A stretch of 64,000 bases of DNA from Antilocapra americana (Eukaryota; Chordata; Mammalia; Artiodactyla; Antilocapridae), in the NCBI GenBank assembly GCA_007570785.1, contig ML664159.1, forward strand, positions 5,951,376 to 6,015,375, written 5' to 3'. A program made the translations under genes and the position numbers. Shown here piece by piece: positions 1,678-38,651 of the stretch. The notes below the pieces were generated by a model. That model ran no database searches, was not told where the DNA came from, and worked only from the letters and a program-made list of their open reading frames with translations. The number at the start of each line of letters is the position of its first letter. Positions within the stretch are counted from its first letter, which is position 1.

Positions 1678-1950
1678 CTCTCAGTACATCTTGGACTTCA
1701 ACCGAATCAACATTTTTTAAGCAATTATATAAATTCTGAGCTGTGGCATTACTCTGCTCCTTTTCTTGCCACTTCTTCAACATCTTAAACTTACTGATCG
1801 TAACATCGTCTTCCTTCTCCCGGATAGCGTCGATTTCGCTAATATTCAGCTCCAGGTTGGCAATGGCAATCTTTAACCAATCCTTCCCCAGCTTCTCAGC
1901 AAGGTTAAACAACTGAGTGTCTGTTAACAGGGTTTTAGTCTTCACCCCAT
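1678..1950 (-). CDS. Exon 16: death domain
   Basis: This 273-nt exon enters in phase 1 (acceptor TTTTAG before 1950) and leaves in phase 1 (donor AG|GTAAGC at 1678/1677). It encodes residues 416-506. The death-domain pattern is clear: [17 protein letters not shown], then a helix with [14 protein letters not shown], then [11 protein letters not shown] and an Asn-Ala-Thr before LYNCLKN. Trp440 and Trp476 fall at the two usual tryptophan positions. The pattern is not that of a CARD, which lacks the LG..W signature. Death domains bind other death domains such as FADD, PIDD, CRADD or MyD88; the partner cannot be told here. The exon is not the last, because it ends at a splice donor with no stop. 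Confidence 0.88.
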
Positions 1951-4900
1951 CTAAAAGCACACGAAGAATTCAGTAGTTCCTCTCAACACTTCATTTATAG
2001 TCACTGACAATGAAAATTCTCTTTATATAAAAAAGGAAACCATGATTTGAAACTTTAACTGCTTTTAAAATAAATTTAAGTGCCAAAAAATCCCTGCTCT
2101 CCAAACTATCTGAAGAACTGAAGGGGCTGAACTGGGGGATAATGCTCACCAGGATAATTCAATGATTCAGGGAATGAAATTGTTTTACAAAGCTGCACAA
2201 ATTAGGCTGGAGGAAAAAGAAAATCAGGCATCAAAAATAATTTATGTGGCTCAAAAAAAAGCTATACAACACTTCCCCTTGCCCATCTCTGCATCTTCAC
2301 ATACAAAGTGCTACCTTCAGTGGTCACTAAAGAGGGCAGCAAGAGATAGGAACTGCAGTCTCCATTCTGCCATCTCCTGGCATTAGGGGGAAGAGCATAT
2401 TCCACAGAAAAGTCATAGTACAGTCATTTTACAGTTAATAAAAGCAAGTAATATCAGTATCTGTTGTTCACTAAGAAACCATGTCATCATTCTAGAAGGG
2501 ATTATGTTTACCGATGCAAACCAGTGCCCCACTACAAAATACCAGCCCCAGTGGGGTTTTCTATGTTCACACTTTTCAGATGGTTGTGCTACAATGCAGC
2601 AAAGCTCACCAGGTGTAGAGCCTCGTTAAGGATCCTCCAAGCCTTACAAACCCTCGAGGTGCCGTGAGAAGAGGGTGAGAGGAAGAATCCTTCCTGCCCC
2701 TCCTCCAGAACCATAACAGATCGCTCATCTAGAGCCAACAGTCTAACGAAGGGAACCTAACATTTGTATTGAACCCTAACCCACTTAATTCAAGAATGGT
2801 TTCTAAAGGATGGCCACTGCCCCCTGGTGGTCTGCTAATGCATGTGGCTTGTGTTCCTCTATCAAAACTGCTACAAGAGAAACCACACACATCCATCAAA
2901 GATGCAAGTTCTCAAGATCATCCCCAAACCTACTGTGTCAGATTCTGTATCTAAATTTTAACAAGACCTCAAAGTGACTCAGAGTTAAGAGATAACTATA
3001 TTTTAAACAGCAATATGGTGATATGCTGAACCTCAAACTATCAGGAAGAGTCAGTATCTCAAAAAATGTTGTGAAAATACCTAAACAAAAATAAATCATT
3101 ATTAATTTATTTGCTACTACATTGTCAACTCTAAAAAGGCTGGCAATCCTTAATTTTCTAGGTAGTATTTGATCATTTTATTCTATGGCTAGCTACTTGT
3201 TCTTGAAGCTAATTTTAAATAGCCAAATAAGTGCAGAGAAGGAAAAAATTTTCCTATGTGTCCCATTCAGTTATAAGTGAATAATTTTTGAGGATCTAAT
3301 ATACAGCATGATGACTACAGTTAATAATAAATACTATGCTGTACTCCTGAGATTTGCTAAGAGAAGGTCTTATCAGTTCTACCACCAAAAACAAAAAAGG
3401 TGGCTATGTGAGGTGATAGATGTGCTAATTAATTCGACTGGTAAATATTTCACAATGTATGCGTACGTCGAAGCATCCCATTGTGTACTTATATACAATT
3501 TTTATTTGTCAACTGTATCTCAATAAAACTGAAAGAAATATGTATCCCAATTTGGTTAGGTTTTAGAAATAATTCCACAGCCTCGTTTATTTTGATGTTC
3601 ATTTAATAGAAATAATAAACAATTCTCTAGTGACATACAGTAAAATCAGACATACACCATCCTCTTCAACTCCAAGCAAATAACATCTTATTTTAGTCTA
3701 CAGAGTTTATCTGCTTTTAGATTCACACCTTCTTACAATAATAAAAGATATTTTGATGAAAGGGTTCATCTACATGAGGCCCCCAAAGCCTTAAGACCTT
3801 GTCTTGTGTAATATGAGTCTGGGTTTTTTAACTCCAGTTTGTGAATTCTGGTTGGACTTGAATTTTGAGGTACATACTCCATCTCCTGGCTCCTTGGAGT
3901 ACTGTTGTTAAGCACTTAAATCTCTACTGTATTTTCACTGCTATCAAGCCTTGATCTGTGCCCTTTAAATGGAAGAAATTAACCTGACCTTTATCTCTAA
4001 TAATTGAGCTGGTGGCTCCCTCCCTGCAAATATAGTAAATAACTGTGAAGCCAGTGAGTGCACACAGGGACTATTCACTTCTTCAGTGAACGCTCATTAT
4101 CTTCTACATTAGTGGCTGCAGGCTCAGTGCTATAGGAAACGCACAATGGGCAGGCCCTGGCCACTGACCCTACAGGCTGCAAGACCTTCCCTTGGCCCCC
4201 AGTTCTACCTTCACCAAGTGCAGGGGAGGAGTGGGCAGTCAAGGTGGAAAAGTAGGCTGGGGCAGACCACCTAGGACCTTTATCCAGGCCTGAGAAGCTT
4301 GGACACAGGGGGAAGGTAGCTGGGAGAGCAGGCACACCCAGGATATGACTCTAGGAAGACTGACCCAAGAAGAACATGTGTCAGATGAATGTCCTGGAGG
4401 AGACCAGAGGAAATGACTGATAGCCACCGAGGACATTTTTACAAACCTGAACTGTCAATCTGCTTCATTCTTTTATCATAGATCATCTCATCGGGTAAGC
4501 TGCTACTCATTTTCCGTCGCCTGTTACCTTTAAAAAAACAACAACAAATTGGCTTTCCCTTATGGTTTTATTATCCACCCATCTTCAAGCTGGACTTTTT
4601 AAAAATCATCATTCTGACAGAACAAATTAAAAAAGGATTCAAAGCTCATTCAGATGATTAAGAGTTATGGAACACTTAAGAGATCTTGAACGTTACTGGA
4701 TTTGCAAAGCAGAATTAAAATTCTAGTGAATGGAAGGAAGAGACGAGTTTAATGTCCACTTACAAGCACTTACCACTTGCGCTGCTTTTTGAAATGTTCT
4801 GTTTCTGATGCTGCTGAACCCAGTCACCTGTTAAGGTACAATAAGCAGCAGTTGGAAAGGTGGTATGAAATTGGAATTAAAGCATCGACGTGTGAAAGCA

Positions 4901-7900
4901 TGTGAAGCTCTAGGGTTTTGGTAATCTCTCTTAAATTCAAATGTGGGTTTTCACTTGGTATGTATGCAAACACCCTGAGCTTGAACTCTTTCCAGAATGT
5001 CTGGTGGGACCAGCGTTTCCCATATTTCAGTCATCTGCACACTGCTGGCATGGTATCTGCCACACCCAGAGGCCAAGAGAAATGTCATTCCTTCCGTATT
5101 TCCCTAAATCTGAAACTACAGTAAACAGAACATTGGCATCATGTGCCCTATGGAGAAGGAAGCCATAAACACTTTCAAAAAATAAATAACATCTTTAAAT
5201 TTTAAGTGAATTTATTTGTACCCTACTCCAGTATTCTTGACTGGAGAATTCCATGGACAGAGGAGTCTGGTGGGCTACAGCCCATGCGGTCGCAAAGTCG
5301 GACACGGCTAAGTGACTAACACACACACATAAAAGAATCTCATCTATGTATTATCATCATGCATTCTTGGTGGGTTCTTTGCAGAAACTTCATTATGATT
5401 TGACACTACCTGCCCCATGAGTTCAGCCCGGCTCTAACAGATGCCTATGTGTTGGGCAGGCCTTCCACAGGTCCCTTGAGAGAAGACGTCTTGTGAGTGA
5501 TGGGCAATTTCTGTTCATCATTAGGATAGGCCTCCCCAAAATAATAGAAACCAGAACCATCTTATATGGCAGAATATTATTAAGTAAGTTTTAAAAAGAA
5601 GTCTTAAAAAGTGGTCTTTAAAACCGCCAAGAGACTTCGTCTGGAAGAACATGTTATTCAGGTTGCTACATGTTAAATACCTTTATTACTGTGGCATTTT
5701 CTATCATTAAAAAGTAACATCTTTCAGGTTCATTTATTGAGCAAATTAAATAGTACAATCCCCAATAAAGTAACTAGAGTTTGGGTAAAAGGGCCTGTTT
5801 CAAACTGGCTAATTTAAGGGTATAATATTGAGAACAGGAGTCACATCTATAGAAGAGCTTCCGGCTTAAACTAGGACAGAATCCCAAATGGATTAGATTG
5901 GGTTTTGTTTCTGGAGTATAAAGCCTCAATAGCAAATATGGGCTCCGTGCACCCACTGAGTGTGGGGATTTGACGGTGGGGGCCTGAGAACCAGAGCCGG
6001 CACTTCGGTCCCAAGAACTGGGGCCTCTGCTTCTCTTAATCGAATTTTTTGATGTTATGGTGATGGGACAGACGAGTATTCTATTTGCTTTCCACCCGAG
6101 CCACTCCCCTCAACCCTCCACAACCCCCCATCTGCCAAACAGAGTTTTAATTCAAGATACAAGATACTCACACTCTCTCAGTTTTGCCTTCCATACAATT
6201 TCCTCGGAATCCATTTCAACCAAGAGCAGTTTAAACTCCACTGGTTGCTCCAGATACACTTCAATATAGCTTTTCAATTTTAAAAGTGAACCATCCACAA
6301 ATTCAATTTCCTTAAAAAAAAAAGTGGTTTTCTTAAATTTAAAAGTTGCATTAATTAACAACATAAAATGTCAGATAAGGAATAAAGGCTATGAGAAGGG
6401 TTAGAACTTAAGTGGACGCCTGTTGAAATTCTGACCTTGTAAATCCACTCCTTAACCATACCTCCTCTCACTCTCCCACTTTCAGCCCCTCCTTACTCTT
6501 ACTCAGAACTGTATTTCTACCTCATTGAAGCTTCTATGAAGCCCTTGTTTTCTAAAGTGTAACTTTTCAGCCCTTTCCTAACTTCCCCCATTTCATGTTC
6601 CCCATATGAACCTGTGCTCAACCAACAGCCACCCTCTCCTGGGTGCTTTAAGCTCCTCACCGCCTTTCTTAGGTCATTCTCTGATCTGTCCAGCTGATTT
6701 CACATTTACAGAACTATGTACAGTGTTCTGTCCACATTCCCTCATTGAACACCACCTGCCCCCAACAAATCCTTTTATCACTATTTTATGAATAAAGGAT
6801 GCCAGAGAAGTGAATGAATTTGCCCAAGTCCACATCTAAGTGGAGCTGGAATCGGAATCCATGCCTGTGACTCCAAAGTCTGAGCTCTTCACCACTATTC
6901 AGACTGTCTCCTGCCTTCCAGCGCCTCTGCGTCTCTCCAGACTGGCTAGCAAGAAATACATCTTTAAAAAAACATCAGCGAACTGCACTGGGTGTCACCA
7001 TCACAAACCAACGCCCTTGATCTGTTCCTCTTCCTTTCTGTTCCAAGTCACTAGTATCATCCTCCCAACATTCCGAGGGTCAGTCACCGAGGCCTACAAA
7101 GCCGAGACAGCGCCTCCCCTGGCCCCACTCTCCTAAACCCCTCCAGGTTCATTTCCCCAGAACTCTCCTGGGGCTCAGCCCAGCTGCACAGTCCCGTACC
7201 CTCCCTAGGCACCTGGGGCCACCTCCCCCAGGACAGCCTGGGAGAGCCAACATCACCCATGAGAAAGCCTTCCTGGAAACCCACTGCACTTGGTCCTCAT
7301 CTCTAAAGGAACATCACATTATATTGAAATTATTTCTCTACATGCATGGAGCATTTCCCTCACTACACTGGCGTCTTTGAGGGAAAAGACTGTGACTTAC
7401 TTATTTGTTAATTCTTAGCTCTTATCAGGCTGGCTGGTAACAGGCACATCTGATGTCAGTTAAGCACATCATTAATGGTGTAAAACTAATAAGAGCACCT
7501 TACATTTACACAAGAGTTTTACAACTCTCAGGAGTGCCCCAAACCATGACTTTGTATGATCCTTACAGCAACCTTGGGAGATTATCTCCATTTTATAAGC
7601 CAGAAATTTGGTTAAGAGAGAGCACACAGTTAGTGACAGACTATGCACTCAGTGACTAACTATGCAGTAGAATGCAGACTATTCAAAGCCCTCTAGCTAT
7701 CAACATCTTTTATAAGAAACAACTCCTGGGATCCCCTCGGTCTCTCTCTGGGAACGTCCACCCATTCAATATGTACTCTTCCCTCTCCTAGTGGTTCTTA
7801 ACCTTGGCAGCACATTACAGTCAGTCACCTTGGGAGCTTTAACAAGCCCAATGCCTGGGCCATTCCCGGACCAATTAAGTCAGCATCTCTGGGGGTGGGA

Positions 7901-10900
7901 CCCAAGCCACCAAATTTTTAAAGCTCCCCAGGGAAATCCATTACGCTGCACAGGCCACTCAAAGCACACCCTTCTCATTTAGTTCCACTGTCCAGACAAG
8001 GCTGCAGTCTGATTCTTGTGATTCTCTTGATGTGCCATCTGCTGGGACCTGATCGGTATGGAAGGGACGAAAATCAGCCTCTCAGATCCCAGTAGGGAGA
8101 TGGTAGCTTCAGGAGCCAAGGCAGTCGGGGCCGTGGGCGAGCTCTCCTCACAAGTGTGGCCTGGGCAGAGTGCCCACCTGCTCTGCACACTGGTTTCCTC
8201 CGCCGTGTTACTGTATGGCTCAAACGGTTCAAAGCATGTGCAGAGATGCTTTGAAATTGAAAAGGAAGGAAGACGGTCCTGATCAACCTGACTGCTTCGA
8301 CGGGGCACAAGGCCCTGATAATACCAACATAATAAAACAATGCAACATGGACCACTGCAATTGGCTCTCTTGCCTCCCACTTTTAATTTAATGGAATCAA
8401 AACATGTTTTTAACTTTTTATAAACTGTAAAACAGACAAAGGAGGTAGACAAGAGGAATTTCCATGCAGATGTCCAGACTAGATAAGCTATGGCATACAC
8501 CCAGGGCACACAATGAAAATAAACTTTAAAAATAACTAAGTCATTTCCGAGCAGCCAAAATCACTTACAAGTGTCGTGATGTGTACAGTGAATGCTTCAA
8601 ATCTAACAATTTATTCCCATAACTACTTTTCAAATGCCTTCCAGTAGGAAAAGCCCAATATCCTTTGTTAGCAACTCTTTTCCATTAACCTTTAATGCTC
8701 TGCATGACTTAAACTTGTTTTGTATTCCTTTGAAGCTAAAATTATTTGAATAACTTAATTTAAAATGCAAGAAAACTGAAAACCTTTTCAAAGGGAAAGA
8801 GAAATGAAGAGTCTATTTTTTTGATGACTGCAGTTGAACCCTGAAATTCAATAGCATCTTTGGAATAAACTGCAAGTTTAATAAAACAACTGCCTTCTTA
8901 GACACTGAGAAATAAAAAAGGAGAACAAACTGCATTATTTTTCAATATCTTCCAAATGCTGTATCTAAGAAATCTACATGCTCCCCCCACTGCTACTCCA
9001 AGTTGATTTTTTTACAGTATCTACCTCTGGGGTGATCTCAGCTTCTGGCTCACTGATCAGCCTGTACTTCTTCCCATTCTGCAGCAACTTCTGGCAAACC
9101 GGAGGCTTGTCGATTTTCATGAATTTCTTAGAGGAGTGCTTTACAGACTTGGAAATATCCTAAAGGCGGAAATAGGTTTGGGTTTTGAAATCCATCAGCA
9201 ACAACTGTGACAGTCGAAGTCAAGAGCTGGGCAGTGCATGTGCCAGCTGTATTATTTTCGTGTTCTCCTACAGAAATGAGGGCCAGGGAGGATGCCCCAC
9301 AGTGATCACAACGGGGAAAAGGCCCAGAAGTTGAGGCACCTTTGTTCTACGCATCTCTCACATAGTCAAACATCTTCCCACGAAAGCACTACAGCCAAAA
9401 GTGTCTCTTATACCCTGTGTGGCACCACCAATTTGCTTTTGAAGGGTCTGAGAACATTACATGAGCACTTGCCTTACACACGGGTACTAATTCCATGCCC
9501 GACATGTGAACAGAGAGCACCTCTTTTACTGGAAGTGGTTCCTGCTGACTCAAAGTCTGTCTCTGTCCCGCACTTGATATGTTCCCATCCTTGCTGTCAC
9601 AACTCTCTGATGTGGCCCTAGAGGGGACACCGATTTTACATGTATTGTTCCAACGCCCCCCAAGAGGTGAATATAATCTCTGGCCCAAGCTCCCTCGGTA
9701 AAGCAGCTGTATGGCTGAATATGAAATTTAGGTTTCTTGAGACAGAGTTCAAGGAAATCTTTTTCTACACAGGAAAAAAAAAAAAAAATCAACTGGAAAA
9801 GGTATGAAACACCAGCCAGGAAGGATATCCTGCCTTCCCCATGTCACACTCTCCATTGTCCTGATTGCAGCCTTCTCCGCACCTGCTGATGTAATCAGCT
9901 CCTGACCCCAGCTTCCCAGGAAGTCTGGATAATGCTCTTTCAACAGTTAACTGAATTTACTTTTAAAATATAAGGTTCATTAAATAATAGTGCTTTTTCC
10001 AAATCTAGGCTAATTCTACTTTATATGTATGTGTGTTCAGTCGCTCAGTCATACCTAACTCTTTGTGACCCCATGGACTATAGTCCACCAAGCTCCTCTG
10101 TCCATGGGATTTTCTAAGCAAGAATACTGGAGTGGGTTGCCATTTCCTCCTCCAGGAATCATACTTTAGGTGCAGTTATTTTTATACCACTTTGAAGACT
10201 ACTTTCCCAACTGAAAGTATTATCTTTAGTGAGATTACAGGAAGCATATTTTACTTTCTTAGGAGGAAACAAAAAAATCTATTACTTAAAGTTTTTACAC
10301 TTTAATACATATTGCTAGTTATAATCTGCATAACATTTTTAAAGCATGCAAATACTACAACCTAAAACCACTGGGAATGGGTAGCTTGATATAAATTCTG
10401 TAACTCAAATTATAATTCACAAAGTAGTATACTTTATCACAGCTGTGTGGATCACAATAAACTGTGGAAAATTCTGAAAGAGATGGGAATACCAGACCAC
10501 CTGACCTGCCTCTTGAGAAACCTGTATGCAGGTCAGGAAGCAACAGTTAGAACTGGACATGGAACAACAGACTGGTTTCAAATAGGAAAAGGAGTATGTC
10601 AAGGCTGTATATTGTCACCCTGCTGCTGCTGCTGCTAAGTCACTTCAGTCGTGTCCCACTCTGTGCAACCCCACAGACGGCAGCCCACCAGGCTCCCCTG
10701 TCCCCGGGATTCTCCAGGCAAGAACACTGGAGTGGGTTGCCATTTCCTTCTCTAGTCACCCTGCTTATTTAACTTATATGCAGAGTACATCATGAGAAAG
10801 GCTGGGCTGGAGGAAGCACAAGCTGGAATCAAGATTTCTGGGAGAAATATCAATAACCTCAGATATGCAGATGACACCATCCTTATGGCAGAAAGTGAAG

Positions 10901-13569
10901 AAGAACTAAACAGCCTCTTGATGAAAGTGAAAGAGGAGAGTGAAAAAATTGGCTTAAAGCTCAACATTCAGAAAACTAAGATTATGGCATCCGGTCCCAT
11001 CACTTCATGGCAAATAGATGGGGAAAGAGTGGAAACAGTAGCTGACTTTATTTTTGGGGGCTCCAAAATCACTGCAGATGGTGATTGCAGCCATGAAATT
11101 ATGAGAGGCTTAATCCTTGGAAGGAAAGTTATGACCAACCCAGACAGCATATTAAAAAGCAGAGACATTACTTTGTCAACAAAGGTCTGTCTAGTTAAGG
11201 TATGGTTTTTCCAGTGGTCATGAATGGATGTGAGAGTTGGACTATAAAGAAGGCTGAGCACTGAAGAACTGATGCTTTTGAACTGTGGTGTTGGAGAAGA
11301 CTCTTGAGAGTCCCTTGGACTGCAAGGAGATCCAACCAGTCCTTCCTAAAGGAGATCAGTCCTGAGTGTTCATTGGAAGGACTGATGTTGAAGCTGAAAC
11401 TCCAACACTTTGGCCACCTGATGTGAAGAACTGACTCATTTGAAAAAACCCTGATGCTGGGAAAGATTGAGGGCAGGAGAAGAGGATGATGGAGGATGAG
11501 ATGGTTGGATGGCATCACCGACTCAATGGACATAGGTTTGGGGAAACTCTGGGAGTTGGTGATGGACAGGGAGGCCTGGCATGCTGTGGTTCATGGGGTA
11601 GCAAAGAGTCAGACACGACTGAGCAACTGAACTGAACGCTTTTCTTTTTTTCACATCTGTCAATCCCTGATTTTGAATCCGAAAGGATAATTTTGAGTCA
11701 CTGCTTTATCTTTTGTCAGTGCTCCACTCACCCCTAAGTCACTGTAACTGTATTGACAGTGGGTCAGGGTATAAAAGGAGATTCAATCCTCTGTTCTCAA
11801 TGATATAGTTCAGAAAACTGGCTAAACAACACAGATTTATTCTGCATTCTGGAGAACGGGTTCCATTATGAATATCCAAACCCTTCCCCTCAGGTCATTC
11901 TACCTTAAACATACTGGGTGCTTTGTGAATATTTGCTGCTACAAAACCCAGAATGTTGAACCCATGAACCAAACATCAGCTTTTATCCAAAAAATTGCTC
12001 CGGAATGAGTTACCCATGAGGTGTATCTTACTGGCAGAGCTTTAAGCCAAGGAGGAATCGCCACCCTCCCTACATTTGACCCAAAGACTCGAAAAAGCCC
12101 CCCAGTGTATCCAGAGCAGGAACCTAGCCAACTATAGAATCCCAGTCACCTGGGAATACTGAGCAGGGCAGGCTCTGAGTCTGCAGATCTGGACGGTGCG
12201 GTGCTGAGATTTGGTATTTTAAGAAGCACCCTACTGATGGCAACAGCAGCTCCTGGTTCCTTGGTCCCCAAATCACATGTTCAGAAGCAAGTCTGTAGAG
12301 AATAGATGGCCTTGGCTGTTCTCTAGGGAACCCTCTCCAAGGCCAGGCCTGCTTGATTGTGCCACACCCATCTCTAGAGGTCTATTTTCCTCTCTGCTCT
12401 CCTCCTGACACTGTTTACATGTATAAACACCCATGCTCCATGGATCTGAGGACCGGGCAGTGATCTTATAACTTCTGTGAGTGAGCATGACATCAGACCC
12501 ACCGTGGGGAGACAATTAAATCAACAGAGACACCCAGATCTTAAATGAACAGACATTGTATAAAGTCTGAACACAAAGCATTCAACATTTAGTATTTACT
12601 TCCATTGACTTTACCTTGATGAAGGATTCATTATTGGTTGCTACATACACTCGAAAAGACAAGGACGGGTTGTGGTCGATGGCTTTGTACAGAATCACCG
12701 CCCCGTGGTGGAATACCGTCTCTTCACTTTGAATAACAGGTCCCACAGGAGAAAGAGAGCTCACACGCCATTTGACATGGGTTGCAGAATGGTCCACAGT
12801 ATATTCTAATGAGGCCCCGGTACTTTTCACATGTAAGACTTTGAACGTCATGTTTCCATCTCGGTCTGTTAACACATGAAGGTGAATTAGAGTTCTGGGC
12901 ACTGGATGCGTTGTGCACATACTCTCACACGTCCACACACCCACATGCCAATTAAACTTTTAGCAAACAAGTACTCACGACCCAAGCAGAGGGAATGTGG
13001 AAACTGAATGGAGGTAAGACAGAGCGGGTCACATTTAACATCAAACAAGGGTCCACCGACGGCCCAGGGCTTCACAACCAGGTCTGAGTATTTGCTCCAG
13101 GACAAGACGCAATACTTGATATCAACTTTCCTATTAACCTCAAATATCAGGCCAGTCTCCGTGCACTGGTAAGTTCCCTCTCCATCCACTTTCAGCCTGC
13201 ATTGGACAGATAAGAACACCTGTCAAGTCCTGATGTTTGTTTAGGAGAGCATTTCTTGAAAAAAAAAAAATTTTAACTCATTTTTTTTGTTGTTGTTTAA
13301 ATTCACTCAAAAGTACCGAGGGAACTCCATAACATTTTGAAGCAGCATCACAATCAAAGGAAACAATCTAAGGCCTTTCCTGGTGGCTTGGAGGTAAAGA
13401 ATTCTCCTGCCAATGCAGGAGACACAGGTCTGATTTCTGAACCAGGAAGATCCCACCAACCTCGGAGCAACTAAGCCCGTGTGCCACAGGAAAGTGGCCC
13501 TGACTCCTCACAACTAGAGAAAAGCCCGCACAGCAACAAAGACTCAGCACAGCCAAAACAAATAAAATC

Positions 13570-13600
<31 letters not shown>

Positions 13601-21025: not shown

Positions 21026-21075
<50 letters not shown>

Positions 21076-27000: not shown

Positions 27001-30000
27001 TCACTAAAACAAGAAAAGAAAAACAGTTTTATAAACAGATACTAATTTTATACAAATAACTAGGAAAGTCTTCAAAATGATCATACTATGTTTCTCTAGA
27101 AATGTTGGCAGGTGGAATAACTCTCTCCCTCCTCAAGGCTCTTCTTGCCCCCTCTCTCCCCACTCCAGCCAGACTCAAAACCACAGGGATAGAGGTGACT
27201 TTGGAGTGTGCAGGTGAAGCCCTGCAGGTCCGCTCACACCCCAGGTACCACCAGCACCAGGCAGCAGCAGCAGCACCACGAAGGGTCACTGCGCTGAATC
27301 CCCACACCCCAGGCCCCAGCCCATCCACCCACCTCGCCCTGCCCTGCCGGCCTCCAGTCCCTCCTGGTTCCTACAGAGGGCTGCTTGCCTGCTCACTCCA
27401 AGGTCTTCTCACCAGCCTCTCTAGCCTCCTCCCTCAGATAGACTACTTCCGGGAAATGAAGGGCCTGGGCAGCTCCATTTAATTAACTGCTCCTCCCACT
27501 GCCTGATCTGGGGTTTGCCTTCCCACCCCAGCTCTGCCCTGCTCAGTCTCACCGGAGGTCTCAAGGGAGAGCTCCCCATCTCCACTTCCCACTCCCCATC
27601 CTCTCCCAGACTCAAAGCCACCTGCCTTCTGCTCCTTCCCACGTACGGAAACCACCGAGGACCCTGCCCAACAAACCCAAGGGGCCACTCTGTCCTCAGG
27701 GACCACCTCTCTTTAGATGAAGCAGGTGACAGGCTCCGCTGCAGCTTCCAGTGCCCCTCTCCTGGTCTCCTCCCTCCTCTCCTCTTGGGGGCCCCTCCCG
27801 CCTCCAGGTGCTCCATCTCCCAGCTCCATCAGCTCCTGGGGATTTGCTTTGTCCCAAGACCACCTCAGTGCGCCCTCCACATACTGCCTCAGGCCCGCCT
27901 TCAGGCCAAAGCTTCAGATCCTAGGTCTCCGACCCCTTCCCAGGCCTCCTCCCTGAGTTCCAGGTACTTAGGGCCTGAGGGTCACTTCAGCACTTTACTT
28001 ACAGTCAGCACTAGCTAGTCCTTGCCTTCTCCTCTCCAAGAAAACCTGCTCCTCCTGACCTGTCTCCACAGAGAATCACCAGGTCACCTAATTGGAACTC
28101 TTGCTCCCTCTTTCCTGGCAAGCAGCACAATCAGACTCCTCCCACGCGTCCTTCCCCCATCTCTCACACTTCTCCCCTCCTCACCCACACCGCTTCTGCC
28201 TGCCTGCAAGCTCTCTGTCTCACTGGTTCTCACACTCTCTCACAATGACTGTCTCACTCTCTCGGTCTTCTCTGCAGGACCTTATCATGTCTTTGCCTTT
28301 CTGTGGCTTCTTACTACTTCCTGGCCTGAGCTCCCTGGCCCCACACACATGAAACCCCCTCACCCTGCTCCCCTGTCCCCCACCCTTCATGCTCCCCCAG
28401 ACGGAATGTACTTCAGTGTCCCAAGCACACCCTGCATAACACACACATACACACCACCCTCCGTAGCCTCCCCAGAAGAGTCCCTGCCAGGAGCCTTGCA
28501 GGTGCACAGCTCAGCTATGCGTGCCCCATGGACAGGTAGAGTTTGTGCACAGAAGTGACAGCCCTGCCCTCTGCCATGATGCCCAAACTGCTCCTTATCC
28601 CCTAGGAACAGCATTTCACAGGGTGTGGACTGAAGACATTAGAATTCTCAGAGTGCCTTCTAAAAACCATTTTTCTGGGCCCATTAAATCAGAATCTTCG
28701 ATGAATAAATGAAAAACCAGGAAGAAAACAACAATGGTGTTATTTGCAGTGATGGGTGTTTAAAATCTTCCTGGATTTTCTCATTGAATCATCCCAATAA
28801 GCCTATGAAGGCCATTTGACAAATGCAGAGACTGGAGCTCAGAGAGGTACGTGACTTCCTTGAGGTCACACAGCTAACAAACAGCAAAGGAGCACTTGAC
28901 CCTAGGCACTTAGGACTTAAAAGCCCCGGGAACCATGTCTCCCTTCACTCCCCACCACTTCACCCACCGACCCCGATCCTGGCAGTGACAGTAAACTGAG
29001 GAAGAAAAGAACAAAGCAGCAGACCGACTGCTAGTCCCTTCCTTTCTCTTCTTCAGTCAAGTTAGTCAGGAGCCTCCAGATTTTGAAAATCTCCTTGACT
29101 CAAGGGTTTTTGTGATAAACATTCCCAAGTATTTGGTATTTCCCAAGCTTCATATCCTAGGAAAACTGTGCATTTTCATTTTCAGACCCAAGTCCTCTTA
29201 TTTTTTAATCCTAACCTCCAGCTCAGAAGGTCAGAAGGGTGGTAAGCCTGAAATTAGGAAATGCTTCAAGACATTAAGAAAGACTAAAACATGGTTCCCA
29301 GTGAAATGCATAGAAGAACAAGCCAGCCATTGCATCGTTTCTCTCCAGACTCATACCCTTATAATGCAATCATTATGCCCTTTAATTTAAAAGTAATTAT
29401 GAGAACATGTAATGGGATTGGATGCCATGATCTTAGTTTTTAAATGCTGAATTTTAAGCCAGCTTTTTCACTCTCCTCTTTTACTTTCATCAAGAGGCTC
29501 TTTAGTTCTTTGCTTTCTGCCATAAGGGTGGTGTCATCTGCATATCTGAGGTTATTGCTATTTCTCCCAGCAATCGTGATTCCAGCTTGTGCTTCATCCA
29601 GCCCAGCATTTTGCACGATGTACTCTGCATATAAGTTAAATAAGCAGGGTGACAATATACAGCCTTGATGTATTTTCCTTTCCCAATCTGGAACGAGTCT
29701 GTTGTTCCATGTCCAGTTCTAACTATTGTTTCTTAGCCTGCATACAGATTTCTCAGGAGGCAGGTAAGGTGGTCTGGTATTCCCATCTCTTGAAGAATTT
29801 TCCCGTTAGTTGTGATCTACACAGTCAAAGGCAGAAGTAGAAGTTTTTCTGGAACTCTCTTGCTTTTTCAATGATCCAACGGATGTTGGCAATTTGATCT
29901 CTGATTCCTCTGCCTTTTCTAAATCCAGCATGAACTCCTGGAAGTTCAGAGTTCATGTACTGTTGAAGCCTGCCACTTCATGGCAAATAGATGGGGAAAC

Positions 30001-36000: not shown

Positions 36001-38651
36001 GTCAGGCTACAGTCCACGGGGCTGCAAACAGTCAGACGCAACTGCGCACGCATGCACGCTGCACTGTGTAAGTCGTTTGTAACTCCTGGGAACTAAAGAA
36101 CAAGAGAAGTGTGTGTGTGTGTGTACAGCAAAGGGTTCCACATCCTCAGCATCTAACACATTGTTTGGTGTATAGTGTGCGCTATTTAAAAAAAAAAAAA
36201 AGGCTCATTGGATAAATGACAGAAACAATGTGGTAATTAGATATAAAGTTGCTGTTGCTGAGTCACTACGCCATATCCGACTGTTTTTCGACCCCATGGA
36301 CTGTAGCCCACCAGGTTCCTCTGTCCATGGGATTTTCCAGGCAAGAGTACTGGAGTGGGGTGCCATTTCCTCCTCCAGGGGATTCTCCTGGACCAGGGAT
36401 TGAACCCACACCTCCTGCACGGGCAGGCAGATTCTTTACCACTGAGCCATCTGGGAAGTCACTAGATATAGAGACCTCCTTAGCATTTAAAAATCAGTAA
36501 TAACATTTTAAATGGCCAAAAATGTGAGAATGGCTAAGTGTCAGGGTGGCATCCTGTGCGGCTACTAAAATTACAAGGAACAGTAGCCAACACCTGTAGG
36601 GTGCTTTACAGTTCACTGACAATTGCACCTCCCCCCTGTTTGACACACAACTGTACAGACTTGGCTGCCACACTGAAATGTGTAAATGACTCATTAGTAA
36701 GTTTTCCTGAGGAGACCAGAAAGATCAGTGATTGCAGGCTAGCAAGTTTTTACCTGAAGAGGTAGGGGGGACCCACATTTCAGAGTAATGGGGTCACAAA
36801 GAGTCGGACACGACTGAGCGACTGAACTAAGCTAGGAAGGAGTAGGTAGAAGTTGAGTTAGCTCTGCTTTGTGTAAATAACCGTGCATGCTAATTTCACA
36901 CACTGCGTTTCCATTCACTTCCCTTTTCTTTTGGAACAAAACTACTTTTGCTGTATTTGACTGATTCAAAATTCACTTTAACAACCATTTGCAAGTATTC
37001 CTGCTAACTGACCACCTCTAAGGAGGTGTTTTTGATGACCCAAGTGGACCCAGTTCTTGTCCTACTGGGGTTTTATTAATGCTAATGTCAAGAAATTCAA
37101 CAGCATAACTTAGCCACAACAAAGCTTTCCAAATTGTCTTCCTGATTGCAACAGTGTTTTAAAGAACAGAGGAGGAAAAAAAAAAAAAATCACACATAAA
37201 ACAAAGGAAAAAAGTCCTTCCCTCTTTCCTAAAAGAATATGAGCTGTTCAACGAATAGGAAACACTGAAGTCGTGAACACTTTAAAGCTCTGTATTCTCT
37301 AGCTGATCATGCAGAAACTGTTATGTGGCAGGGACTGTCCCAAAAGCAAGTTCTCTGCAGAGTCTGAATCTTTGCCCAGCGTTTCTGCACTGCTTTGGGC
37401 GGGCTTCCTGCATGTGCTTACAGCAATGAGAGGATTACCTAAAGGATACATTTCACAAACAAGCCGTCACGTGTCTTGTGCTGAAACTGCATCCAATGCC
37501 AAAAGTCTGCTCCTGCAGATGAGAGCTCTGGAGAACTCGACCGCTACAGCCCAAACCAGCTCTGAATATACATTCTCACGTGAAAAGAGCCTGCCTTTAA
37601 AGGTCTGTGGGACGCTGATGGCAAACAGAGGCATTGGCTACCTTTACAGTAATAGTAGATATCCTAAAAGCAATGTTGATCTCGTGCCTTCTGTGCTAAA
37701 GACACTATTAGGGCCCCAAGGGAGGGTAGAAAGGATGGACTGGAGCAGGGGAGTGATGGGGTTGTTCCACGCATGGGCAAAAGGGGATTACGGAAATAAT
37801 GCCGCTCTCGGCTCAAACCATTTGAAAGTCAAGAGGCCAAAGCGCCGGTGGTGTTGAGAAAAACTTCCCAAGTCCTCCCCGACCCGAGCGCAGAGGGCGC
37901 AGGGGATCCGGAGAGCTGAAGCTCGAGAGCTGGGAGCAGACGAGGACAGCAGAAGCCGGCCCGGGGGGCGGGAAGTCAGCGCGGAGGCGGGAAGGGCGCG
38001 AGTCCACTCGCGCTGGGAGCAAAGGGGATGCCACAGGGCGATCTGCCCCCTCCACACCGGCCCGCCGCCCGCAGCCGCTGCCGCCGGGTGGACGTGAACA
38101 AACCGGGCCCACCTGCCACCGCCTCCGCGCTGCCGCGGCCGAGGGCCCGGGTGGCGGGCGCCGGCCAGGGGCGACGGCAGGGGGCAGCAGCGCCGCCGGA
38201 GCCCCGCCTCCGGGCCGCGAGCCCGGGGCCTCGCAGCCGCGCGCCACCGCCTCCCGCGCGAGCACCTGCGCGCGACCGCGGCGCCGCCCGCCCGGCCCAG
38301 GTGCAGCCGCCCGGGCCCCGGCGGGCGGGTAGGGGAGCGGAGTCCCGGCTGGAGGGCGAGTCGCCACCCCCACGCTCCGTGCCCGCGCCAGGCAGGCGCC
38401 GCCACCGAAGGGTGCTTTGTTTGTGCAGCTCGAGCCGGGATGCCGAGGCTCCCGCCCCGTCCGGAAAACGGGAAGAGCAGAGCCCGCGGTGGAGGGTGCT
38501 GAAGACCGCAGAGCCCCTTCTCCACGCGGCGAGGTCGGGGCCCGCCGCACCCCACCCCCGCCCTCCCAAAGCCCGACCCCCGCCCCCCGACCCCCGCCCA
38601 GCCCCGCGGCTGCGCTCACCTGCTGTCCGCGACCCCTGCGTCTCGGCTCAT
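1678..38651 (-). CDS. FIIND (ZU5-UPA) plus death domain protein; 16 coding exons, 3' end outside the window
   Basis: Exons join in this order (minus strand): 38651-38620, 27003-26972, 25128-25084, 18600-18559, 18233-18204, 17501-17478, 15222-15178, 14133-14086, 13927-13881, 13219-12979, 12865-12615, 9159-9025, 6310-6172, 4827-4774, 4527-4447, 1950-1678. All are flanked by AG and GT, the total is 1519 nt, and the frame is open for 506 codons with every phase matching. Residues 1-115 are acidic and Ser-rich, with no recognisable fold. Residues 116-372 resemble the FIIND of CARD8 and NLRP1, with motifs [37 protein letters not shown] and [14 protein letters not shown]. Residues 420-500 are a death domain with Trp440 and Trp476. 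In the known family, FIIND autoproteolysis leaves a C-terminal UPA-effector fragment held by the N-terminus until that part is degraded; the effector there is a CARD. No signal peptide or membrane segment is seen, so the protein is probably cytosolic. Intact phases and no stops argue against a pseudogene. The last exon(s) were not found. Confidence 0.85.
1951..4446 (-). other. Intron 15
   Basis: This is non-coding sequence between exons 15 and 16. It holds an L1 3' remnant at about 3290-3540. The rest is AT-rich single-copy-looking sequence in which I recognise nothing. Confidence 0.7.
3290..3540 (+). repeat. L1 3' untranslated remnant
   Basis: The series ATGACTACAGTTAATAATAA, GTGAGGTGATAGATGTG, AAATATTTCACAATGTATGC and CATTGTGTACTTATATACAA, ending near AATAAAACTGAAAGAAAT, is a typical mammalian L1 3' tail in the plus direction. 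The 72-codon frame across it is incidental. Confidence 0.65.
4447..4527 (-). CDS. Exon 15: basic linker before the death domain
   Basis: This 81-nt exon is phase 1 to phase 1, with acceptor TTTTTTTAAAG before 4527 and donor CAG|GTTTGT at 4447/4446. It encodes residues 389-415 with motifs [17 protein letters not shown] and KQIDSS. The Arg-Lys run gives the linker a basic patch. The exon is divisible by three, so it could be skipped without shifting frame. It was recognised by splice sites and phase alone, which makes it less certain than the domain exons. Confidence 0.72.
4774..4827 (-). CDS. Exon 14: end of the UPA region and linker
   Basis: This 54-nt exon is phase 1 to phase 1, with acceptor TTAACAG before 4827 and donor GTG|GTAAGT at 4774/4773. 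It encodes residues 371-388, reading [18 protein letters not shown]. It follows the UPA sheet (WKAKLRE in exon 13) directly and starts the polar linker to the death domain. The acceptor and donor are both close to consensus. Confidence 0.75.
4828..6171 (-). other. Intron 13
   Basis: This is the interval between exons 13 and 14. It contains one truncated SINE at about 5221-5330. I see no other feature in it. Confidence 0.65.
5221..5330 (+). repeat. 5'-truncated Bov-tA/BOV-A2-type SINE
   Basis: The 3' half of the ruminant SINE is present: ACTCCAGTATTCTTGACTGG, GACAGAGGAGTCTGGTGGGC and CGCAAAGTCGGACACGGC, ending in a short ACACAC run. The tRNA-like 5' half is missing. Confidence 0.85.
6172..6310 (-). 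CDS. Exon 13: C-terminal half of the UPA subdomain
   Basis: This 139-nt exon starts in phase 0 after TTTTTTTTTTAAG and ends in phase 1 at T|GTGAGT. It encodes residues 325-370: [18 protein letters not shown], then [19 protein letters not shown] and VWKAKLRE. A hydrophobic strand pattern ending in a Trp-x-Ala motif is usual at the end of the UPA part of FIIND proteins. The downstream UPA strands are what multimerises in NLRP1 and CARD8, so this exon belongs to the presumed active fragment. Confidence 0.85.
7445..7660 (+). repeat. Ancient MIR/L2-like remnant
   Basis: The run CTTACAGCAACCTTGGGAGA, then ATCTCCATTTTATAAGCCAG and later AGAGCACACAGTTAGTGACA, follows the order of a MIR element core. 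Divergence is high and family assignment is tentative. Confidence 0.4.
7790..7945. mobile_element. MER5-like (hAT-Charlie) DNA transposon remnant
   Basis: TGGTTCTTAACCTTGGCAGC at the left, CATCTCTGGGGGTGGGACCC in the middle and AAAGCTCCCCAGG at the right match the layout of MER5A-type non-autonomous elements. The right end is truncated. Confidence 0.65.
9025..9159 (-). CDS. Exon 12: middle of the UPA subdomain
   Basis: This 135-nt exon is phase 0 to phase 0, with acceptor CGCCTTTAG before 9159 and donor GAG|GTAGAT at 9025/9024. It encodes residues 280-324, with [15 protein letters not shown], then NGKKYRL and [10 protein letters not shown]. The pattern of I-[DR]-K-P-P, a strand, and then E-x-E-I-x-P-E matches the same stretch of CARD8 and NLRP1, and it separates this gene from ankyrin or UNC5 ZU5-UPA proteins. 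It is divisible by three but structurally essential to the sheet. Confidence 0.88.
10029..10156 (-). repeat. Bov-tA-type SINE fragment
   Basis: GTGTGTTCAGTCGCTCAGTC, TTTGTGACCCCATGGACTAT and CTGGAGTGGGTTGCCATTTC are the ruminant SINE tail and body read in reverse. The tRNA-like part is absent. Confidence 0.85.
10441..11636 (+). mobile_element. BovB (RTE-type) LINE fragment, 5' truncated, decayed
   Basis: The translation gives the BovB reverse transcriptase: [15 protein letters not shown] from 10440, the catalytic box YADD near 10864, and [13 protein letters not shown] after it. The copy reaches the 3' end near 11636, where the tail GAGCAACTGAACTGAAC lies. The frame is broken by a SINE insertion at 10625-10754 and by frameshifts after about 11215. 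It has no function left and is a passenger in intron 11. Confidence 0.92.
10625..10754 (-). repeat. SINE inserted into the BovB copy, with target-site duplication
   Basis: A ruminant SINE body, starting with a (GCT) run, interrupts the BovB reverse transcriptase frame. The 11-base duplication GTCACCCTGCT flanks it at 10614-10624 and 10755-10765. It is therefore younger than the BovB copy. Confidence 0.9.
12615..12865 (-). CDS. Exon 11: FIIND autoproteolysis region (His207, Ser234) and first UPA strands
   Basis: This 251-nt exon starts in phase 1 (acceptor TGTTAACAG before 12865) and ends in phase 0 at ATCAAG|GTAAAG. It encodes residues 196-279. The stretch [16 protein letters not shown] gives His207 and Glu216, and [13 protein letters not shown] gives Leu233-Ser234-Pro235. 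As I recall them, human NLRP1 uses His1186 and Ser1213 and CARD8 His270 and Ser297, both 27 apart; the spacing here is also 27. The residue before the Ser is Phe in those proteins and Leu here. The exon goes on with [15 protein letters not shown] and [10 protein letters not shown], the matching UPA strands. Whether the protein cuts itself cannot be decided from sequence. Confidence 0.88.
12979..13219 (-). CDS. Exon 10: ZU5 subdomain of the FIIND
   Basis: This 241-nt exon starts in phase 0 after TTGACAG and ends in phase 1 at C|GTGAGT. It encodes residues 116-195. Clear FIIND landmarks are [16 protein letters not shown], then [22 protein letters not shown] and [10 protein letters not shown]. 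The VGGPLFDV motif is nearly identical to CARD8 and is the strongest single clue to the family. An AG nearer the body (before 13191) would put the frame out of phase with exon 9, so I chose 13219. Confidence 0.9.
13220..13880 (-). other. Intron 9
   Basis: This short intron contains one complete-looking tRNA-type SINE with a TA microsatellite at its end (13369-13600). Nothing else is recognised. Confidence 0.7.
13369..13600 (+). repeat. CHR-type tRNA SINE ending in (TA)n, with target-site duplication
   Basis: The body begins AGGCCTTTCCTGGTGGCTTG and ends AGCCAAAACAAATAAAA followed by a TA run of about 30 bases. The 8-base duplication AAACAATC flanks it at 13361-13368 and 13601-13608. The 87- and 67-codon frames across it are artefacts. 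Confidence 0.85.
13881..13927 (-). CDS. Exon 9: last N-terminal region exon, Cys/His pair
   Basis: This 47-nt exon changes phase from 1 to 0 and joins the acidic region to the FIIND. It encodes residues 100-115, [16 protein letters not shown]. CxxC (Cys108 and Cys111) with His107 and His110 nearby might bind metal, but one such group alone is weak evidence. The acceptor TTTAG before 13927 is the one that keeps phase; a second AG two bases further in (before 13925) would break it. The donor is AAT|GTAAGT. Confidence 0.75.
14086..14133 (-). CDS. Exon 8: acidic N-terminal exon
   Basis: This 48-nt exon, phase 1 to phase 1, encodes residues 84-99, [16 protein letters not shown]. The acceptor is TTTTACAG before 14133 and the donor is CAG|GTATGA. 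The exon can be skipped in frame. It contains a bulky His-Phe pair in an otherwise acidic stretch. Confidence 0.75.
14236..14440 (-). repeat. BOV-A2-type SINE
   Basis: This is a nearly full-length ruminant tRNA-Glu-derived SINE in reverse, from AAATCACTTCAGTCGTGTCT to GTTGAGCCACCAGGCAAGCC. AGGAAC occurs on both sides (14227 and 14443) and fits an imperfect target duplication. Confidence 0.88.
14530..14993. mobile_element. hAT-like non-autonomous DNA transposon remnant
   Basis: The left end reads CAGTCCCCAAACTTTTTGGC and the right end GTTGGGGACCCCTG, which are imperfect inverted repeats of each other. The interior includes CATCAGGCATTAAAATCTCA and GATCTGACAGGAGGTGGCAC, a widespread old mammalian element. 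Exact family name not certain. Confidence 0.65.
15178..15222 (-). CDS. Exon 7: acidic N-terminal exon
   Basis: This 45-nt exon, phase 1 to phase 1, encodes residues 69-83, [15 protein letters not shown]. The acceptor TTGTCTCCACAG and donor AGG|GTAAGA are both strong. It has a one-in-three acidic content and no predicted fold. Confidence 0.78.
15223..17477 (-). other. Intron 6
   Basis: I see no exon in these 2.2 kb. There is a tentative MIR-like core at about 16010-16170 (TTTCCTCATCTGTTAAATGA and GCCTGGCACTCAGCAAGCAG). Open frames at 15250-15860 and 16560-17210 on both strands look like chance frames in GC-richer DNA. Confidence 0.6.
17478..17501 (-). CDS. Exon 6: 24-nt micro-exon
   Basis: This exon, phase 1 to phase 1, encodes only residues 61-68, ISQWGIHE. 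The acceptor TTTTCTCTGCAG and donor AAG|GTAATT are good. It is the least acidic of the N-terminal exons and contains a Trp. Its small size means it may be alternatively spliced. Confidence 0.7.
18204..18233 (-). CDS. Exon 5: acidic N-terminal micro-exon
   Basis: This 30-nt exon, phase 1 to phase 1, encodes residues 51-60, [10 protein letters not shown]. The acceptor is a T-run followed by GTAG, and the donor is CAA|GTGAGT. It can be skipped in frame. Confidence 0.75.
18559..18600 (-). CDS. Exon 4: Ser/Glu-rich N-terminal micro-exon
   Basis: This 42-nt exon, phase 1 to phase 1, encodes residues 37-50, [14 protein letters not shown]. The acceptor is TTTTTTTTTTAAG and the donor is CTG|GTGAGT. 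The S-x-x-E and S-x-E pattern is a strong casein kinase 2-type phosphorylation context, by pattern only. Confidence 0.8.
19291..19498 (-). repeat. BOV-A2-type SINE
   Basis: This is a full-length ruminant SINE in reverse, from GTGTGTGCCTGGTGCTCAGT to ATCAGAGCCACCAGAGAAGC. The overlapping frames of 76-150 codons on both strands run through it and are not genes. Confidence 0.85.
20393..20570. mobile_element. MER5-like DNA transposon with both ends
   Basis: The left end AGCGGTTCTCAACCTTGGCT and the right end CAGCCAGGGCTGAGAACCAT are inverted repeats of each other. The size of about 180 bp and the internal CAGGGAGCTTTCCACAC fit MER5A. Confidence 0.75.
21013..21112 (+). repeat. (GT)n microsatellite with 62-bp-period duplication of its flank
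   Basis: AGTCTGGGACTTCTGCGTGT occurs at 21013 and again at 21075, each followed by a long GT run. The unit of flank plus GT run has been duplicated in tandem. Confidence 0.9.
21110..21323 (-). repeat. BOV-A2-type SINE
   Basis: This ruminant SINE in reverse runs from GCGCTAAGTCGTGTCCAACT to AGCGCCACCTAGGAAGCCCC and directly follows the GT microsatellite. Confidence 0.88.
22030..22072 (-). repeat. CHR-type SINE 5'-end fragment
   Basis: GTGCGGAGTCCTAACCACCG followed by GGACTGCCAGGGAATTCC is the reverse of the tRNA-like head of CHR SINEs. The rest of the element is absent. Confidence 0.55.
22880..23090 (+). repeat. BOV-A2-type SINE inside the L1 remnant
   Basis: A full-length plus-strand SINE, from TCACTGGTGGCTTTGAGGGT to ACACGACTGAGCAACTAAGC with an (ACA) tail. 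It splits the L1 3' sequence. Confidence 0.9.
23392..23800 (+). mobile_element. MLT1-like (ERVL-MaLR) solo LTR
   Basis: The order GTCCCCCCCACACAGAAACT, CCCACAGTACCTTAGAATAT, GACTGGTGTCCTTACAAAAA, GAACCAACCCTGCCAACATC and AAGCTCCCCAGTCTAGGCAC follows MaLR LTRs of the MLT1 type. It sits inside the reverse L1 remnant. Confidence 0.65.
24059..24274 (-). repeat. BOV-A2-type SINE with 13-bp target duplication
   Basis: A ruminant SINE in reverse is flanked by CTACCAGCAGTGT at 24046-24058 and 24275-24287, a perfect duplication of L1 target sequence. Confidence 0.93.
25084..25128 (-). CDS. Exon 3: N-terminal exon, Ser/Asp-rich
   Basis: This 45-nt exon, phase 1 to phase 1, encodes residues 22-36, [15 protein letters not shown]. 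The acceptor is CAAAATTTAG and the donor is CAG|GTAAGA. It is skippable in frame. Confidence 0.75.
25129..26971 (-). other. Intron 2
   Basis: I recognise no repeat or exon in these 1.8 kb. The sequence is AT-rich and mostly looks single-copy. Confidence 0.55.
26972..27003 (-). CDS. Exon 2: acidic N-terminal micro-exon
   Basis: This 32-nt exon starts in phase 2 after TTTTCTTGTTTTAG and ends in phase 1 at AAAAG|GTATGA. With the two bases from exon 1 it encodes residues 11-21, [11 protein letters not shown]. The entry phase matches exon 1 and, by coincidence or not, the candidate exon at 63027-63232. Confidence 0.78.
27100..28560 (+). other. C/T-rich intronic stretch with chance open frames
   Basis: The plus strand is strongly pyrimidine-rich with recurrent CTCC and CCCT. 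Stops are scarce in consequence, giving back-to-back frames of 126, 167 and 178 codons. Their translations are low-complexity Pro/Ser/Leu with no domain. I regard it as non-coding. Confidence 0.65.
28790..28930 (+). repeat. MIR-like remnant
   Basis: CATTTGACAAATGCAGAGAC, GAGCTCAGAGAGGTACGTGA and GAGGTCACACAGCTAACAAA follow the MIR core order. Confidence 0.65.
29414..30604 (+). mobile_element. BovB copy with 5' inversion (twin priming)
   Basis: The left half (about 29414-29960) encodes BovB reverse transcriptase on the minus strand, including [16 protein letters not shown]. The right half (about 29965-30604) continues the same element on the plus strand from [18 protein letters not shown] to the 3' tail. 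The two halves abut in the element at about the MAS/TSWQ position. An imperfect 15-base duplication, ATGAGAACATGTAAT at 29399-29413 and ATGAGAATATGTATT at 30605-30619, brackets the whole, so both halves came in one event. Confidence 0.85.
31318..31533 (-). repeat. BOV-A2-type SINE
   Basis: A ruminant SINE in reverse, from GGCTGCTGTCAAGTCGTGTG to AGCACCACTTGGGAAGCCCC. CATGTA appears just outside both ends. Confidence 0.87.
32155..32220 (-). repeat. BovB 3'-tail fragment followed by AT-rich microsatellite
   Basis: A GTT run, GTTCAGTCACCAAGTTGTGT and CCCATGGACTGCAGCACGCC form the reverse of the BovB 3' end. An AT-rich run (ATATAT, TAATTATAT) follows to about 32300. Confidence 0.75.
32330..32480 (+). 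repeat. MIR-like remnant
   Basis: ATCCCCATTTCACAGATGAA, then GAAATGAGGCTTGGGTAACT, keep the MIR core order. Confidence 0.6.
32661..32882 (+). repeat. BOV-A2-type SINE
   Basis: A full-length plus-strand copy, from GGGGCTTCCCCAATGGCTCA to GACACGACTGAAGTGACTGA. Confidence 0.9.
34905..35350 (+). repeat. Old L1 3' remnant
   Basis: CTGGAAACAACTGCCAGGTT, AGAGGATGAATCTCACAAAC, GCTGTATGATCCTATTTTTA and GGTGGTAGTTACACAGATGT are the standard landmarks of older mammalian L1 3' ends. Confidence 0.7.
35880..36058 (+). repeat. Bov-tA/BOV-A2-type SINE
   Basis: Plus-strand SINE missing the first bases, from AGAGATGCAAGAGACACAGA through CCCTGGAGCAGGAAATGGCA to CAGACGCAACTGCGCAC. Confidence 0.87.
36250..36462 (-). 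repeat. BOV-A2-type SINE with target duplication
   Basis: Reverse-strand copy flanked by TAGATATA at 36238-36245 and 36463-36470. Confidence 0.9.
36787..36832 (+). repeat. SINE/BovB 3'-tail fragment
   Basis: GGGGTCACAAAGAGTCGGAC and ACGACTGAGCGACTGAAC are the shared 3' tail of BovB and the Bov-tA SINEs; nothing upstream of it is kept. Confidence 0.75.

Follow-up and report, generated by a model that had tools for sequence, protein, structure and literature searches.

An old, unnamed tetrapod gene family that joins a FIIND (ZU5-UPA) module to a death domain

One gene of the window, the whole 64-kb stretch of Antilocapra americana DNA analysed here (within an 8.3 Mb contig of a 2.44 Gb assembly), joins a FIIND (ZU5-UPA) module to a death domain and almost certainly represents an old and unnamed family of tetrapods. 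The gene is intact and apparently single-copy. Sixteen of its exons lie on the minus strand from 38651 to 1678, with AG/GT borders, compatible phases and one stop-free open frame (Table 1). An earlier note on this DNA had given sixteen phase-compatible exons and a join of 506 residues; the borders and phases hold, and the numbers become 17 coding exons in total and a product of 513 residues. The CpG island over exon 1 is the probable promoter. The predicted protein of sheep (P0003) is identical to that of the window at 484 of 513 positions (94.3%), the protein of elk (P0001) at 477 of 496 and that of hippopotamus (P0004) at 461 of 513. The near-identity with sheep and elk excludes a chance origin of the exon chain.

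Table 1. Exons of the FIIND–death-domain gene and the CpG island at its 5' end (window positions; exon 17 lies past the left edge of the window and is given in the coordinates of the flanking locus L033)
Feature	Position	Strand	Remarks
Exon 1	38620..38651	-	start codon; donor score 11.8; inside CpG island
Exon 2	26972..27003	-	exon join
Exon 3	25084..25128	-	acidic N-terminus; 45 nt, phase 1-1
Exon 4	18559..18600	-	acidic N-terminus; 42 nt, phase 1-1
Exon 5	18204..18233	-	acidic N-terminus; 30 nt, phase 1-1
Exon 6	15178..15222	-	acidic N-terminus; 45 nt, phase 1-1; missing in 65/120 listed relatives (fragments counted)
Exon 7	14086..14133	-	48 nt, phase 1-1; weak acceptor (3.8); agrees with sheep P0003
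Exon 8	13881..13927	-	carries CxxC motif HCEHC
Exon 9	13735..13784	-	exon join
Exon 10	12979..13196	-	first part of ZU5 (FIIND), VGGPLFDV
Exon 11	12615..12865	-	end of ZU5 with SL|SP site, start of UPA
Exon 12	9025..9159	-	UPA, KIDKPP
Exon 13	6172..6310	-	end of UPA
Exon 14	4774..4827	-	linker between UPA and death domain
Exon 15	4447..4527	-	linker, bipartite basic motif RRRK-x12-KRMK; 81 nt, phase 1-1; missing in 5/120 listed relatives
Exon 16	1678..1950	-	death domain; coding sequence continues to exon 17
Exon 17 (GFLQET-stop)	L033:9871-9852	-	last coding exon; acceptor at window -129, i.e. 129 bases past the left edge
CpG island over exon 1	37880..39080	.	GC 0.778, CpG observed/expected 0.95 (whole window 0.439, 0.25)

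The protein runs from an acidic N-terminus through ZU5-UPA and a linker (exons 14 and 15) to the death domain. For the Pfam query, exons 10-13 were joined straight to exon 16 (338 residues), without the linker exons, because a direct join of exons 13 and 16 had first been assumed. The phases of that direct join are compatible by chance, and the orthologues place exons 14 and 15 between. Exon 16 thus lies in the same protein as exons 10-13, as proposed earlier, with two linker exons intervening. FIIND (2.5e-36, 124.6 bits, cut-off 25.8, profile 11-128 of 131), UPA-FIIND (5.3e-25, 88.6 bits, cut-off 27, profile 1-116 of 117) and Death (9.3e-10) all scored above their cut-offs on the join, in agreement with the claim that a FIIND is joined to a death domain. 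The same search gave no C-terminal CARD at E up to 0.1. Leucine-rich repeats, already said to be absent, and a second ZU5 were not found within the translated exons of the 513-residue protein, which has one FIIND. The acidic N-terminus was there as described, as were the landmarks of the FIIND (13060 and 13159) and KIDKPP (9117). The FIIND has the same fold as those of NLRP1 and CARD8, and the death domain has the death-domain fold, resembling RIPK1, FADD and RAIDD. A structure alignment took in 61 of the 120 relatives listed below.

No part of the protein changes faster than the disordered acidic N-terminus: mean identity of the relatives to sheep is 46.8% there, 73.3% in ZU5 and 84.6% in UPA. 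Exons 3-7 (14086-25128, minus strand) are absent from 19, 19, 33, 65 and 27 of the 120 listed relatives, respectively, about ten of these 120 rows being incomplete at the N-terminus. They are in-frame cassettes, and splicing could vary the acidic N-terminus. Directly N-terminal of ZU5 lies the CxxC motif HCEHC, with the first Cys kept in 102 of 105 and the second in 95 of 107 relatives that have a letter there. The motif could bind metal or be redox-active.

A protein search with the same 338-residue join gave 364 matches, of which the best 120 (E <= 1e-120) appear to be relatives of the window gene, from caecilian to ruminants. The earlier note's suggestion to search vertebrate proteins thus showed that the family extends well beyond ruminants, on the best 120 of 364 matches. 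All three Pfam domains are annotated in 103 of the 120, and FIIND and UPA only in the remaining 17 (precomputed annotation). The listed mammals include even- and odd-toed ungulates, whales, carnivores, bats, pangolin, hedgehog, mole, shrew, sloth, armadillo, marsupials and echidna, with both microbats (Pipistrellus, Myotis) and megabats (Rousettus, Pteropus) among the bats; the other tetrapods are alligator, turtles, birds, lizards and a caecilian. No primate, rodent, lagomorph, tree shrew or afrotherian is among the 113 relatives with an organism name in the best 120 of the 364 matches, which are one third of them and in which each cluster displays one organism name. Because placental orthologues would be expected to outrank echidna, this absence suggests that the gene was lost in these groups. 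The idea that it was lost or unnoticed in primates therefore agrees with the listed relatives, loss itself being only suggested.

IL12A, which encodes the interleukin-12 subunit p35, has an exon on the plus strand at L033:35-178 (PDB 1f45, 3.2e-19), so that the window gene, on the minus strand, and IL12A are tail to tail. A coding scan of the 39-64 kb part of the window gave no clear neighbour gene. The syntenic place in human holds the lncRNA IL12A-AS1. This is an antisense transcript of IL12A (PMC5240112). Human IL12A-AS1 could be a remnant of the window gene.

The relatives are labelled 'CARD8(-like)', 'NLRP1a/b allele x-like', 'uncharacterized' and similar, in line with the earlier statement that no named gene has this layout. 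Records from dog, horse, microbats, birds and turtles mislabel orthologues of the window gene as CARD8 or NLRP1. The sequence is therefore already in the databases as misnamed predictions, and 'undescribed' holds in a narrower sense: we found no description of a FIIND–death-domain gene among the literature matches listed, including the available portions of PMC8564539, PMC8195603, PMC12436146 and PMC11182159. An alignment figure of PMC3210808 mentions 'death effector domain containing proteins', possibly an earlier glimpse of the gene. Six 'lgn' entries (P0042, P0046, P0104, P0108, P0112 and P0114) are on contigs of 1.4-2.5 kb, and P0042 (395 aa on 2,236 bases), P0046 (401 aa on 1,422), P0108 (516 aa on 2,489) and P0112 hold FIIND, UPA and Death together. 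Since such contigs are too short for genomic DNA with introns of this kind, we read these entries as assembled transcripts, or possibly intronless copies. The order ZU5-UPA-DD is known from PIDD1, UNC5 and ankyrins. What is new is that a conserved tetrapod gene pairs a FIIND-type module with a death domain; the individual parts were known.

The window gene is neither CARD8 nor NLRP1, and on sequence grounds it forms a third, slow-evolving FIIND lineage. Over ZU5-UPA, its protein is 94% identical to that of dog, 93% to fruit bat, 92% to armadillo, 82% to echidna, 71% to chicken and 65% to caecilian, and only 26-29% to NLRP1 and 24% to CARD8. In the same comparison, human and rat NLRP1 share 67%, less than ruminant and chicken do for the window family, and NLRP1 and CARD8 share 52-55%. 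The unrooted FIIND tree of 16 rows separates the window family (12 rows: the window protein and 12 relatives chosen among the 120, minus P0108) from NLRP1/CARD8 (4 rows, one of them joined by eye) with a support of 100/100. A separate third lineage follows from these identities and this split. The FIIND tree suggested in the earlier note thus places the protein among neither NLRP1 nor CARD8, and 'CARD8 relative' in a narrow sense fails because the protein is about equally far from both and separate from them. Orthology with CARD8 was rejected on the 24% identity, the split and the missing CARD. DTHD1 was set aside as the gene's identity by locus and names, not by sequence: the locus adjoins IL12A, and no listed relative is so named. 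DTHD1 maps elsewhere in human.

In the assembly itself, FIIND matches occur at two loci only among the 8 candidates scored, the window gene and one at G000:C2202:28583520-28586713. The latter aligns with NLRP1 (78% to the human protein across the joined pieces) and has an SFSP site. None of the 8 scored candidates was a CARD8 locus, so this ruminant may lack CARD8. CARD8 and NLRP1 are reportedly patchy in mammals, microbats being without CARD8 and megabats without NLRP1 (PMC10249858). A different arrangement occurs in the anole, where LOC100556846, 'Nlrp1-like' and near PYCARD, has PYD and FIIND without NACHT, LRR or CARD (PMC13076529, legend of Fig. 4).

The best explanation of the family is a conserved FIIND protein that probably cuts itself and acts via the death domain of its C-terminal fragment, perhaps in the nucleus. 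Self-cleavage is the first point to weigh. CARD8 cleavage depends on S295, F296, S297, H252, H270 and E279 (PMC3210808). With gap rows of the 120 left out, the equivalents in the relatives are Ser in 117/119 for S295, Ser in 119/119 for the nucleophile S297, His in 116/117 for H252, His in 119/119 for H270 and Glu in 119/119 for E279. P1, the equivalent of F296, is the one cleavage residue that differs: it is Leu in 118 of 119 rows and Phe in one. Across the 119 rows, the SF|S cleavage motif is thus replaced by SL|S. P2' is Pro in 119/119, as in NLRP1, and could be linked to DPP9 binding. Two points from PMC3210808 speak against cleavage here: F296H severely impaired that of CARD8, and UNC5b has Leu at the P1-equivalent place. 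The nucleophile and the histidines show no drift across relatives, which speaks for cleavage. So does the cut at His-Leu|Ser/Thr in GAIN domains of adhesion GPCRs. Overall, we consider it likely that the protein self-cleaves at SL|SP; with Leu in place of the cleavage-site Phe, release of a fragment is plausible rather than established.

The main rival takes the protein for an uncleaved, closed scaffold like UNC5B, in which the death domain would pack on ZU5 and signal by opening, with no autoproteolysis. The kept equivalents of H252, H270, E279 and S297 argue against it, as does Leu working at P1 in the GAIN domains. We hold it to be possible and on the unlikely side.

The second half of the preferred reading concerns the linker. 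Exon 15 encodes [KR][KR]R[KR]-x12-K[KR]-x-[KR], which has the layout of a bipartite nuclear localisation signal (NLS) and goes unmentioned in the earlier note. This strict pattern occurs in 111 of the 120 listed relatives and a looser one in 114, both chosen after inspection of the sequences; shuffled linkers had the motif in 5.6 cases on average and at most 13 (200 rounds). Each of the seven basic positions is K or R in 113-115 of the 115 rows that have exon 15. The exon is missing in deer P0002 and horse isoform P0032, among others, and horse P0033 retains it; its skipping would yield a form without the NLS-like motif. The motif has a better than even chance of driving nuclear import.

The death domain gives a hint in the same direction. 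A profile of 113 rows (of 121, chosen by length), run against 27 other loci of the same genome, several of them partial exons (ankyrin and PIDD1-like ones included), placed THOC1 first (50 bits), ahead of CRADD (33) and a locus read as RIPK1 (29); the partial exon read as PIDD1 (L026) scored 8.4 bits. A search with the window's own death domain alone gave ankyrins first. The group of FIIND–death-domain proteins with THOC1 appeared in 0 of 200 bootstraps of a death-domain tree of 16 of the 28 own-genome loci and 10 of the 113 relatives' rows, from which L019-L021, L024 and L026-L032 were left out (partial exons, the PIDD1-like L026 among them, a CRADD-like second copy and the query) and L022 fell below the length limit. 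THOC1 as sister death domain thus has the profile score for it and the tree against it. Given this tree, the ankyrins in the single-sequence search and the partial loci, a kinship with THOC1 is only a hint. THOC1/p84N5 is a nuclear death-domain protein, and nuclear localisation is reportedly required for apoptosis induction by p84N5, going by the title of a study that this review cites (PMC5095910). PIDD-CC, a self-cleaved fragment of the ZU5 family that carries a death domain, reportedly occurs in both nucleus and cytoplasm, and in the nucleolus after UV (PMC7785872). Among the genome's death domains, a second and closely similar CRADD-like one lies in one long open frame of 251 aa (L020, G000:C324:925697-925909) and is possibly an intronless CRADD copy.

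Beyond the gene model, the steps that we propose are drawn by analogy with NLRP1, CARD8 and PIDD1. The protein would cleave itself at SL|SP after synthesis, and its halves would stay together non-covalently. Degradation or unfolding of the acidic N-terminal part, as in NLRP1 and CARD8, would then free the UPA-linker-death-domain fragment. The bipartite motif would carry this fragment into the nucleus, or else the protein as a whole, and UPA and death domain would there nucleate a death-domain assembly in place of a caspase-1 inflammasome. The strong conservation of the FIIND makes internal stress a more likely trigger than a fast-changing pathogen protease. The complete chain from cleavage through release and import to assembly is rather unlikely as a whole. 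Its widest form, a tetrapod-wide Leu-Ser self-cleaving sensor with a nuclear UPA-death-domain assembly, as the nuclear counterpart of CARD8/NLRP1 lost in the human and mouse lineages, is a speculative proposal and slightly less probable still.

In a further reading, the protein is a cytosolic, inflammasome-like pathogen sensor whose N-terminus would serve as a protease tripwire and whose partner would be FADD, RIPK1 or CRADD. This reading agrees with the FIIND fold shared with NLRP1 and CARD8, with the N-terminus changing faster than ZU5 and UPA, and with a death-domain fold similar to RIPK1, FADD and RAIDD. The FIIND is conserved far beyond that of NLRP1, though, and the NLS-like motif fits poorly; the gene is present in listed microbats and megabats alike, unlike the patchy CARD8 and NLRP1 of bats (PMC10249858). 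We judge such a sensor doubtful. A CARD8 orthologue whose CARD exons were swapped for a death-domain exon would match the many CARD8 or CARD8-like database names and the lack of a third FIIND locus among the 8 scored candidates. It is very improbable: NLRP1 and CARD8 share 52-55%, against 24-29% with the window protein, the unrooted tree splits them at 100/100, and a late swap would hardly explain why echidna, birds and caecilian have this architecture too. A pseudogene or chance chain of exons, to which the weak acceptor of exon 7 (3.8) might point, is negligibly probable given 17 in-frame exons without a stop and the 94.3% identity to sheep over 513 residues.

Most of what is known about FIIND biology comes from NLRP1 and CARD8 of humans and rodents. 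If these lack the third, more conserved FIIND gene of livestock, dogs, bats, birds and reptiles, work on them could not have revealed it. Because the family evolves slowly and is separate from NLRP1 and CARD8, it may be an old form of FIIND signalling. It suggests that a FIIND need not drive caspase-1, and makes the window gene a test case for a FIIND fragment working via another death-fold domain. In many animals, the labels 'CARD8' and 'NLRP1' denote this other gene, which can distort surveys of inflammasome presence and absence.

Among known systems, the C-terminal FIIND-CARD part of NLRP1 shares with the window protein the ZU5-UPA fold, the catalytic His and Ser and the Ser-Pro at the cut; the window protein differs by a death domain instead of a CARD, the lack of NACHT and LRR, Leu instead of Phe at P1 and an identity of 26-29%. 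PIDD1, itself self-cleaved, likewise has ZU5-UPA followed by a death domain, whereas the window protein lacks the LRR and has one FIIND-type ZU5. PIDD1 has two ZU5. CARD8 has in common the size class, the FIIND and a disordered N-terminus (disorder of CARD8: PMC3210808), and is set apart by its CARD in place of the death domain, the window protein having Leu at P1, an NLS-like linker and 24% identity to it. UNC5B and the ankyrins share the domain order ZU5-UPA-DD, and UNC5b also the Leu at the P1-equivalent place (PMC3210808). THOC1/p84N5, nuclear and with the best-scoring death domain by profile, is without the FIIND that characterises the window protein.
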